Shown piece after piece: positions 10,668 through 47,084 of a stretch of 64,000 nucleotides of DNA (positions are counted from its first letter, which is position 1; every line of letters starts with the position of its first letter). Both the position numbers and the translations under genes were made by a program. The notes beneath the pieces were generated by a model. That model ran no database searches. It saw only the letters and a program-made list of their open reading frames with translations, and was not told the DNA's origin. The stretch spans positions 1,054,001-1,118,000 of the forward strand of contig JAHLLQ010000001.1 in the NCBI GenBank assembly GCA_020444065.1. Direction: 5' to 3'. The stretch comes from a bacterium. GTDB taxonomy: Bacteria; Sumerlaeota; Sumerlaeia; SLMS01; JAHLLQ01.

Positions 10668-11231
10668 ATGAAGTTGAACGAGAAGAAACTGGAGCGATTC
10701 CGAAGGGATGGCGTCATCGTTCGAACTCGCAGTAGATTCGACGATAGCTTCTATCAGCAAGGTTACATCCTGGCGTGGTCGCCAAAGTGGCTTCTGCTGA
10801 AATTGGTTTCCGACGATATTCTCGCGAACGGGTACTCTGCGGAACTTGTCTCCACGCTGAAGTCCATCAAGCGTGCGCGGAATGGCGAGTTTGTTCGCAA
10901 GGCACTCGAGCTCCGCAGCCAGTCGTGGCCACATGAAGACGAAGTCGGTCGCATCAAGCTGACGAGCAAAAGAGGAGTCATCGAGAGTGCATTGGAATTC
11001 TTTCCACTTGTTTCAGTGCATCCACTGCGAACTGCGCCCGATATACTCTTCATTGGACGAGAGCCGTCATTCAGCGACGGGGAGATGGACTGGCGCGAGA
11101 TATCGATCCAAGGTGAGATGGATGACGGCCTTCGATGGCATCGCATGAAGCCCATCACTCGGATCGATTTCGGCGGACTGTACGAACAAGCGCTGTGGGA
11201 CGTCTGGAAATCGAAGAACGCGCCGGGTTGA
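10668..11231 (+). CDS. Orphan protein with DFGGxxEQALWxVWxS C-terminal motif
   Basis: The 187-residue protein is not recognised. It is basic at the N-terminus, shows beta-strand-like alternation in the first 60 residues, and ends in a conserved-looking DFGGLYEQALWDVWKS segment that recurs in the truncated copy at 9912-10004. There is no signal peptide or membrane segment. ATG 10668 is preferred over ATG 10650 because AAGGA lies ten bases upstream. A strong terminator overlaps its last codons. A damaged paralog in tandem is common for immunity-type or other accessory genes, but nothing in the sequence proves such a role. Confidence 0.6.
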   Translation: MKLNEKKLERFRRDGVIVRTRSRFDDSFYQQGYILAWSPKWLLLKLVSDDILANGYSAELVSTLKSIKRARNGEFVRKALELRSQSWPHEDEVGRIKLTSKRGVIESALEFFPLVSVHPLRTAPDILFIGREPSFSDGEMDWREISIQGEMDDGLRWHRMKPITRIDFGGLYEQALWDVWKSKNAPG

Positions 11232-11255
11232 TTGCCCGGCGCGTTCGCGTTTCTT
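11219..11255 (+). terminator. Terminator straddling the stop codon of the orphan gene
   Basis: A 9-bp perfect stem CGCGCCGGG/CCCGGCGCG (11219-11227 with 11235-11243) has a 7-nt loop and is followed by TTCGCGTTTCTT. The TGA stop codon (11229-11231) lies in the loop, so the last three codons form the stem. Confidence 0.75.
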
Positions 11256-26114: not shown

Positions 26115-26150
26115 CGGCCCGGGCGACAACGCCCGGGCCGGTTTTGTGTT
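26115..26150 (+). terminator. Strong rho-independent terminator of sodA
   Basis: An 11-bp perfect stem CGGCCCGGGCG/CGCCCGGGCCG (26115-26125 with 26130-26140), the 4-nt loop ACAA and the tail GTTTTGTGTT. Confidence 0.9.
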
Positions 26151-44652: not shown

Positions 44653-45768
44653 ATGTCTACAGAAGCTGGACTTATCCGCCGAACATTCAAGCGAAAAGGC
44701 GTACGTCGCGCGCTTTGGTTCCTGCTCGGCGTGGGAGTGACGGGGATCCTGATTCCAATGTTCATGGGGGCTGTTGTGCTATCTGCACCGGGGTATGAAG
44801 GGCCTGAATCGGATCACTTCGATGGCGAACGCTTCTCGAACCAGGTCCCAATCGCAAACAAGAATCGGTTTGCAACGTTCCTGAAGTGGCGTTTCACCGC
44901 CGATCCGGGTGAGTGGCGCGACTTCAAACCCGCCGATCCCGGACCGGCTCCTCCAGAGCGCGTTGGTGATGGCGAGATGCGCGTCACGTTTGTCAATCAC
45001 GCCACGGTGCTGCTGCAGATGGATGGACTGAACATCCTGACCGATCCGATCTGGTCCGAGCGCGCAAGCCCCTTCACCTGGATTGGCCCGAAGCGCGTCC
45101 ACCCGCCGGGGATTCGTTTCGAAGACCTTCCCCCAATCGATGCCATCGTGATCAGCCACAACCACTACGATCACCTCGACCTGACTACGCTGAAGCGACT
45201 GGCCAAAACGCATGATCCCACGATCTATGTTCCTCTCGGGAACGATCTCTATCTGCGACGCCAGGGACTGACAAACTGCAAGGCAATGGACTGGTGGGAT
45301 GACGTAAAGTTGGCGGACAATGTGGAACTGACTTTTGTCCCGGCGCAGCACTGGTCCGGGCGAGGAACGCGTGATCGTCGCAAGACGCTCTGGGGCGGCT
45401 ATGTCGTCAAAGGTCCGGCGGGCGTCGCTTACTACGCCGGCGACACGGGAACGGGCCCGCACTTCGAACAGGTCAAAGAGCGCTTCGGCGCTCCGCGCGT
45501 TGCGATGCTCCCAATCGGAGCATACAAGCCCATCTGGTTCATGGGTCCGATGCACATGACACCGCGAGAGGCCGTCGAGGCGCACCAGCTTCTCGAAGCC
45601 GGAACGAGCCTCGCCGTGCACTACGGTACGTTTGAACTGGCCGATGATGGACAGGATGACGCGCCGAGGGATCTCAGGAAAGCACGCAAGGAACTCGACG
45701 TCAGCGAAGAGGAATTCTGGATGCTGGACCCCGGCGAGGGACGTTCAGTGCCGCAGCGGGAACAATGA
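44653..45768 (+). CDS. Membrane-anchored metallo-beta-lactamase fold hydrolase (NAPE-PLD/UlaG-like)
   Basis: The 371-residue protein has a basic N-terminus, one membrane segment (about residues 17-40, ALWFLLGVGVTGILIPMFMGAVVLS) and an MBL domain. The dinuclear metal motif HNHYDHLD (about 173-180) is complete, as are YAGDTGTG and the final HYGTFE histidine. The layout FVNHATVLLQMDGLNILTDPIWSERASPF is that of the NAPE-phospholipase D/RomA branch, which acts on phospholipid-like phosphodiesters; the substrate here is unknown. TGA 45768 is part of a REP-like repeat. Confidence 0.87.
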   Translation: MSTEAGLIRRTFKRKGVRRALWFLLGVGVTGILIPMFMGAVVLSAPGYEGPESDHFDGERFSNQVPIANKNRFATFLKWRFTADPGEWRDFKPADPGPAPPERVGDGEMRVTFVNHATVLLQMDGLNILTDPIWSERASPFTWIGPKRVHPPGIRFEDLPPIDAIVISHNHYDHLDLTTLKRLAKTHDPTIYVPLGNDLYLRRQGLTNCKAMDWWDDVKLADNVELTFVPAQHWSGRGTRDRRKTLWGGYVVKGPAGVAYYAGDTGTGPHFEQVKERFGAPRVAMLPIGAYKPIWFMGPMHMTPREAVEAHQLLEAGTSLAVHYGTFELADDGQDDAPRDLRKARKELDVSEEEFWMLDPGEGRSVPQREQ

Positions 45769-45872
45769 GGTGGCTTGGGCATCTCTGCCCAAGAGCGAAC
45801 CCAGACGCCGGCGCGTCCAAAGACGAAGAGCCCCTCATCACTGGGCTTGAGCAAGGATGCTCAAGTCACCTC
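45767..45872. repeat. Inverted pair of REP-like hairpin repeats
   Basis: On the plus strand GAGGTGGCTTGGGCATC (from 45767) forms an 8-bp hairpin CTTGGGCA/TGCCCAAG (45774-45781 with 45786-45793). On the minus strand GAGGTGACTTGAGCATC (from 45872) forms CTTGAGCA/TGCTCAAG (45846-45853 with 45858-45865). The two elements are alike but differ by one base pair that changes on both sides of the stem. They fill the gap between convergent MBL and prfA genes, like the paired REP units of other bacteria. Confidence 0.8.
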
Positions 45873-45897
45873 GTGTGATCGCCGCCAGCGCTTCGAT

Positions 45898-47007
45898 TTA
45901 CTGCCCCATCTCCTCCATCAGCTCTTGCATCTCAGCTTTGCGCAAGGAACCGACCAACTCCTCCAGATCGCCTTCCATGACGCGATCGAGGCAATACAGT
46001 GTGAGATTGATGCGGTGGTCGGTCACGCGGTTCTGGGGGAAATTGTAGGTGCGGATGCGCTCGCTTCGGTCGCCGCTGCCGACCATCTGTTTGCGCGAGG
46101 CGCTGCGCGCGGCCATGTCTTCGCGCATCTTCTGTTCGAGAAGCCGGGAACGCAGGACCTGCATCGCCTTGGCGAGGTTCTTCCGCTGGCTGCGCTCGTC
46201 CTGGCAGGAGATGATCATGCCGGTCGGCAAGTGCACGACGCGCACGGCGCTGTACGTCGTATTCACGCCCTGGCCGCCGGGGCCGCTGGCGCACATGGTA
46301 TCGATGCGAAGGTCGGAGTCTTTGACTTCGATGTCGGTCTCTTCCGCTTCGGGCAAGACCGCCACCGTCGCGGCGGACGTGTGAATGCGCCCTTGAGTTT
46401 CAGTGACGGGAACGCGCTGCACGCGATGAACGCCACCTTCGTACTTCAAGTGGCTGTAGACCCGATCGCCCCGAATGCCGACGATGACTTCGCGGAAGCC
46501 GCCGAGGTCGCTCTCGGTCTGCGAGACCAGTTCCACCTTCCATCCCTGGGTCTCCGCATATCGTGAGTACATCCGCAGCAGATCGCCCGCGAAGAGCCCG
46601 GCCTCATCGCCGCCGGTGCCTGCGCGGATTTCCAGCAGCAGGTCGCGGTCATCCAGCGGATCCTTCGGCATCAGGCGAAGCTGCAGTTCCTCGGTCAACT
46701 TCTCGACCAACTCGCCGGCCTCTTCCGCGTCCGCTTCTGCCAACTCCCTGAGTTCGCCGTCGGATTCCGTTCGCAGCAACTCCTCCGCCTCTGCCAGCCG
46801 CTGCTCGGAGGACACCAATTGCCGCGCCACAGCGATCGTCTCCGTCAGGTCGCTGTGCTCGCGCCCAAGTTCCGCCAGGCGGCGCGGATCGCCGGCGACG
46901 GCCGGGTCGCTCAGTTCGCCCTCGATCGCCTTGTGGCGATGTTCGAGATCCTGAAGGCGCTCGCGCGTCGAGCGTACGGTCTTTTTCTTTCCGCGGGTTG
47001 ATTCCAT
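45898..47007 (-). CDS. prfA: Peptide chain release factor 1
   Basis: The 369-residue protein is a class I release factor. The anticodon-like PVT (200-202, in [15 protein letters not shown]) identifies RF1, which reads UAA and UAG; RF2 has SPF there. The catalytic GGQ is at 244-246 ([16 protein letters not shown]). ATG 47007 fits the family start; the frame is open up to 47088 but with no matching sequence. The GGQ glutamine is usually methylated by PrmC, whose gene is not nearby. Confidence 0.96.
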
Positions 47008-47084
47008 GGGTGTTTCCAAGAGGCCAGGGGCCAAAGAGTATTCAGCAAGCGACGGGTGAATGTGGGTGAAAGAGCCGTTGGAGG

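Follow-up and report, generated by a model that had tools for sequence, protein, structure and literature searches.

The locus lies in a window of 64,000 nt, the whole stretch of DNA that was analysed (G000:C1:1054001-1118000), from a 5.2-Mb genome assembled in 14 contigs and 97% complete. Here a gene for a metallo-beta-lactamase-fold hydrolase and a gene for a peptide chain release factor converge on a short unit of two facing hairpin arms, the end of which falls 25 nt short of the stop end of the release-factor gene (Table 1). The sequence GAGGTGRCTTGRGCATC occurs twice in facing orientation, at 45767-45783 (+) and 45856-45872 (-) in the letters of the 64-kb window; with up to three mismatches the window holds three matches against 0.72 expected from shuffles, and the exact matches are this pair only. 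Each 27-nt arm consists of a head, GAGGTGR, and an 8-bp hairpin with a 4-nt loop, namely CTTGGGCA-TCTC-TGCCCAAG (45774-45793) in the first arm and CTTGAGCA-AGGA-TGCTCAAG (45846-45865) in the second, with 8/8 stem pairs formed in both. The stems differ at a single pair, G-C in the first arm and A-T in the second, and the change is thus compensated. The original prediction had described exactly this arrangement, two facing copies with 8-bp hairpins and one compensated difference, the first beginning inside the TGA of the hydrolase gene, and every element of it was recovered: the stop codon of the open reading frame 44653-45768 occupies 45766-45768, the first G of the repeat is its second base, and only 5 nt separate the stop codon from the stem. 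The unit contains one arm of each of two types, A and B, in the order B> <A. Its arms can also pair with each other over 27 nt with 81% complementarity, and the predicted RNA fold of the 112 nt around the unit (-54.8 kcal/mol, z -4.75, with 0/200 shuffles this low) is that of arm paired with arm. An Rfam search of the window returned tRNA only.

Table 1. Features at the hairpin locus, in window coordinates
Feature	Position	Strand	Remark
Upstream gene, metallo-beta-lactamase-fold hydrolase, 371 aa	44653..45768	+	PF12706; TGA overlaps unit
Whole REPIN-like unit, B> <A, 106 nt	45767..45872	.	As single strand, arms can also pair into one long hairpin
REP arm type B: GAGGTGG head + 8-bp hairpin CTTGGGCA/TGCCCAAG, then AGC	45767..45793	+	Overlaps TGA 45766-45768
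Spacer separating the arms of the unit	45794..45845	.	
REP arm type A: GAGGTGA head + 8-bp hairpin CTTGAGCA/TGCTCAAG, then CCC	45846..45872	-	
Downstream gene, peptide chain release factor	45898..47046	-	PCRF and RF-1 domains

Genome-wide searches revealed that the element is far from confined to this site. The pattern of the complete hairpin occurs 45 times without mismatch (0 for the reversed control), the 17-nt head has 96 matches at up to two mismatches (3 for the reversed-pattern control), and a covariance model trained on 49 distinct arms, with 150 of 2905 first-look candidates scored, gave 90 matches at E<=0.01, rising to 95 at E<=1. A set of 38 stretches (37 fetched and the window) contained 106 matches at up to three mismatches, of which 89 had at least 7/8 Watson-Crick stem pairs and were retained, the other 17 being excluded from all later counts; the 89 good arms are distributed over 45 places. 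The head GAGGTGR is conserved across the arms of this genome, and 12 identical copies were counted of the most frequent 27-nt arm. In the set of 49 distinct arms, pairing is kept in 98.7% of stem cells, 34 cells are changed on both stem sides (shuffled mean 8.7), and the stem covariation score is 0.279 against 0.117 after shuffling, with 0/500 shuffles as high in either measure. Changes on both sides affect three stem pairs (T-A/C-G, G-C/A-T and G-C/C-G/A-T), a number not unusual in itself (2.3 in shuffled data; 164/500 shuffles). Since compensated stems are found across the 49 arms, the single-pair difference of the window unit is a general trait of the family. The REP-like character originally proposed for the pair is upheld by this anatomy and covariation, together with the paired orientation and intergenic location described below.

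Sorting of the arms by the bases that follow the stem separated 47 type A arms (mostly CCC), 39 type B arms (AG or AA) and 3 unassigned arms (n=89). The types also differ in stem sequence, CTTGAGCA being present in 30/47 A arms and CTTGGGCA or CTTGGCCA in 31/39 B arms; the tag next to the stem is GTGA in 35/47 A and 28/39 B arms, most arms having either GTGA or GTGG. Among 44 neighbouring arm pairs 24 are facing, and 20 of these combine A with B. In units of up to 150 nt, the minimum-energy fold joins arm to arm, not within arms, in 21 of 24 cases. Some places hold arrays in tandem with a period close to 213, 320 or 150. A degenerate GAGTACGAGTACGAG-type short tandem sequence was also seen beside or inside several units on contigs C3 and C7 (L087, L088, L094, L095 and others).

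Facing ends, and unit lengths of 81-256 nt at many places, would also suit MITEs of a classical DDE transposon, with the 27-nt arms as terminal inverted repeats. Such an origin is highly improbable, given that conservation and covariation mark every single arm as a hairpin in its own right, a property not required of terminal repeats, that 18 of the 45 places carry a lone arm, and that flush direct repeats of 3-7 nt at the unit ends, the mark of target duplication, were found in 0/31 units. Repeats of 6-mers at offsets of up to 4 were in slight excess (4 against 1.02, the largest shuffle giving 4), an excess that the tandem arrays may cause. The spacers more than 45 nt from each unit end are no more similar to one another than shuffled sequence (median 0.415 vs 0.414), and whole units from different places reach at most 81% identity; near-identical units at different places are thus lacking, and recent movement is without support.

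The arms are intergenic in 88 of 89 cases, in DNA of which 79% was called coding by a gene finder trained on the window. The 44 places flanked on either side by a called gene comprise 18 between convergent, 17 between tandem and 9 between divergent genes, compared with 27, 79 and 42, respectively, for the reference gaps of at least 60 nt in the same DNA (n=148). The distribution along the genome is strongly uneven: contigs C3 (below 465 kb), C7 and C10 hold 78/89 arms and 37/45 places on 23.7% of the genome. Contamination as the source of this bias was considered and is not favoured, the G+C contents of the three contigs in the stretches read (0.610, 0.619 and 0.615) differing little from those of the others (0.572-0.637) and six other contigs carrying the repeat as well. 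No empty site was readable for the window unit, the release-factor gene not lying beside the metallo-hydrolase gene, within the DNA retrieved, in any of the four relatives that have the hydrolase.

The enrichment between convergent genes, which extends to 7/8 places outside C3, C7 and C10, and the compensated stems speak for transcription terminators or RNA-processing signals selected at gene ends and not mobile. This reading is nevertheless very unlikely. A T-run after the stem is absent, the following bases being mostly CCC or AGC, and 0 terminator-like sites were predicted at 45600-46000. Moreover, the repeat also lies between divergent genes at 9/44 places, only 7/89 arms are 15 nt or less from a stop codon, and its near-absence from four same-family genomes (2, 0, 0 and 0 matches at up to one mismatch) is unlike a core housekeeping signal.

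The same counts bear on the stop codon, to which the original prediction had given weight: overlap concerns 2 of the 89 arms, is not supported as a family trait and is incidental to the family. Nor could the statement that this is the third repeat in the window touching a stop codon be confirmed as worded, the positions of the other two not having been given. A survey of window hairpins (stem of at least 8, loop of 3-8) yielded 11 distinct positions. One is a perfect 12-bp hairpin at 11216-11246, GAACGCGCCGGG-TTGATTG-CCCGGCGCGTTC, with the stop codon of a called gene in its loop; another, an 11-bp hairpin at 26115-26140, CGGCCCGGGCG-ACAA-CGCCCGGGCCG, starts 28 nt past a called stop codon.

Searches for a transposase in the window genome with PF01797 detected four Y1 genes. 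NCBIfam places three of the proteins in the IS200 type (65.5, 64.2 and 58.6 bits, cut-off 55), with an HVH motif in their reading frames, and the fourth is a weak RAYT homologue (38.2 bits against the NCBIfam RAYT cut-off of 80). In the latter (L070, G000:C2:662500-671000) the HUH motif reads RVH, in place of the H-x-H of aligned RAYTs, and a relative of this protein in genome G001 has AVH at the same site; judging from these residues, catalysis may have been lost in this subgroup and the protein retained for another role. A RAYT profile of six proteins detected no further gene and no full RAYT in this genome, and 0 copies of the repeat were found within about 4 kb on each side of the four Y1 genes. 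On both sides of the IS200-type gene at C3:432128-432469 there are palindromes of another kind, CCTGGCGC-GNTTA-GCGCCAGG. They belong to a second REP-like family on both sides of this gene (stretch L068, G000:C3:428000-436500), CATACCAG-CCTGGCGC-GNTTA-GCGCCAGG together with GTTA-CCTGGGGT-TGGC-ACCCCAGG, and sequence similar to it is contained in the spacer of unit C10:71389-71644.

With three Y1 proteins above the IS200 cut-off, HVH motifs in their frames and no other candidate in the genome, one may ask whether one of these IS200-type transposases continues to mobilize the repeats in trans. This is unlikely, as no repeat copy lies within about 4 kb of the IS200-type genes and the palindromes on their flanks are of other kinds. 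The RAYT-type gene towards which the original prediction had pointed is not found in intact form alongside the repeat in the window genome; the association is present elsewhere, in two genomes where related GTGG-tagged hairpins flank full-length RAYTs. The assembly being 97% complete and in 14 contigs, a RAYT could also sit in a gap.

The first of these two RAYTs (L311, from the Hydrogenedentota isolate SJ204) is full-length with an intact HVH motif and scores 81.1 bits with NF047646, against a cut-off of 80. A GGTGGCATGGGCTTCCAGCCCATG hairpin lies upstream of it, near the 5' end of the open frame, and two facing copies follow immediately downstream. At L311:1775-1981 the RAYT's own TGA overlaps the first downstream REP, an arrangement as in the window. 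The second (L322, from genome G003 of the same family as the window genome) is likewise full-length (profile E-value 4.1e-73) with an intact HVH, and carries facing TGTGG-CTCGGGCG-TC(C/T)-CGCCCGAG hairpins on both sides; a further hairpin copy, GTGGCTTGGGCGTCCCCGCCCAAG, is present elsewhere in the same genome (L346). An incomplete portion of the L322 frame had no Pfam match and was left out of account. Among 16 RAYT loci, L322 included, nine have hairpins of other sequence beside GTAG-, GTGG- or GGAG-like bases and seven have none of this kind. When 83 Y1 loci were scanned automatically for tagged hairpins, 4 matches were obtained, two of them at L311, against 5 in the reversed control, and since the scan did no better than this control, the link to RAYT genes is drawn from the flanks of L311 and L322.

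Related hairpins are more widely distributed than these two loci. In the 99 genomes searched with the exact head at up to one mismatch, 81 matches were in the window genome, 7 in G016, and 1 or 2 in each of seven others. The covariance model at E<=0.05 recognized 12/40 genomes, including G016 with GAGGTGGCATGGGCATCTTGCCCATG and G004 with AGGTGGCTTGGGCGTCTCGCCCAAG. A collection scan for GAGGTGRCWTGRGCAN{3,4}TGCYCAWG returned at least 93 stretches; among the matches listed, most were in two Hydrogenedentota genomes and some in Sedimentisphaerales, Akkermansiaceae, Opitutia, Nitrospiraceae and Sumerlaeota. The GAGGTGGCATGGGCATCNTGCCCATG hairpins of Hydrogenedentota and other phyla resemble the window family in the GAGGTGRC head, the loop-proximal GCATCNTGC, the position of the stem and the loop of 3-4 nt, but differ in the second stem pair, which is A-T in them and T-A in the window genome; some copies are followed by a GGGCTGGAAGCCC-type hairpin. 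A Y1 gene was found in 0/80 loci with a related hairpin in other genomes (L120-L199).

Overall, the window pair is very probably one REPIN in a population of about 90 arms at 45 places that was spread by a RAYT, the cognate RAYT not being in the assembly. What was observed is the copy number, the structure with its covariation, the pairing of arm types, the intergenic location and the RAYT-flanking relatives elsewhere; the spread of the arms by a RAYT in the window genome is the inferred part. The best reading is a REPIN population of a known kind, with a cognate RAYT that is absent, defective or lies in unassembled sequence. Since no cognate RAYT is present in the assembly and the sole RAYT-like gene has RVH and no nearby repeat, the population is most likely an orphan, no longer moving or moving rarely. 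In single-stranded DNA, for example the lagging-strand template, each arm can form an 8-bp hairpin with a GTGR tag, the type of structure bound and cut by RAYT (TnpA-REP) HUH transposases, and copies have spread into intergenic DNA. For other REPs, an HUH enzyme is known to cut the tagged hairpin as a single strand and to transfer it (PMC8266576), and by analogy this mechanism would apply to the repeats considered here. In E. coli, the portion of PMC12306157 available reports that REPs less than 16 nt from a stop codon reduce translation; by the same kind of analogy, translation could be lowered at the window copy and at 6 others of the 89 arms.

Two further properties of the tag were considered and set aside. 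Under an IS608-type guide model for the cleavage dinucleotide, as outlined in the accessible part of PMC8266576, GTGA would predict TC, which precedes 16/28 B arms and only 4/35 A arms with that tag, and the CC corresponding to GTGG arms was not seen; nothing is concluded from this guess. The head GAGGTGA resembles a Shine-Dalgarno sequence, a likeness given no weight, as related families differ in those bases.

A different fate for an orphan population is that the REPIN hairpins are kept by selection on the hairpins alone, serving the host through DNA binding, topology or RNA stability and not a transposase, with the arm-rich part of the chromosome being repeat-tolerant. The background to this proposal is that arms are identical in up to 12 copies while spacers are at the shuffled level, and that most arms lie in part of the chromosome; both the proposal and the tolerance that forms part of it are doubtful. 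On the favoured reading, that of a RAYT-spread population most likely left without its transposase, about 90 copies lacking an intact RAYT stand against a relative that has one, which offers a natural comparison for the fate of REPINs after transposase loss. The analysis adds a REPIN family from a class including Candidatus Sumerlaeota genomes, with related hairpins in Hydrogenedentota, Planctomycetota, Verrucomicrobiota and others that are tied to RAYT genes in two genomes; the general picture of REP function is unchanged. The literature consulted did not include a report of REPs from Sumerlaeota or Hydrogenedentota, which is no proof of absence.

Members of the GTAG superfamily and REPINs, as described in the accessible part of PMC3733652, are tagged palindromes of 20-40 nt with stems of 6-9 bp and mostly very short loops, which form head-head heterodimers with spacers mostly of 20-100 nt, occur in tandem clusters and are intergenic, often between convergent genes. 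The window family is like the REP/REPIN elements of that description in its tagged palindrome, stem length, compensated variants, heterodimers, clusters and location. It is unlike the GTAG superfamily in its tag, mostly GTGA and not GTAG; the available sections of the same paper report a GTGG tag form in the GTAG-20 family of Opitutus terrae, and a GTGA form was not found in them. Because all features except an in-genome cognate RAYT match the REPIN description, as far as that part of PMC3733652 gives it, the repeats are read as a REPIN family. They differ from described REP/REPIN elements in having two arm types distinguished by the stem and by the bases after the hairpin, and from REPIN-RAYT systems in that no cognate RAYT was found in the genome. 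E. coli REPs have a bulged stem, and a BIME consists of alternating unlike REP units. The stem of the window family is without a bulge and its sequence is unrelated to those elements, but, as in the E. coli BIMEs (cf. PMC2817692), unlike REP types alternate in orientation and are sometimes arranged in tandem arrays.
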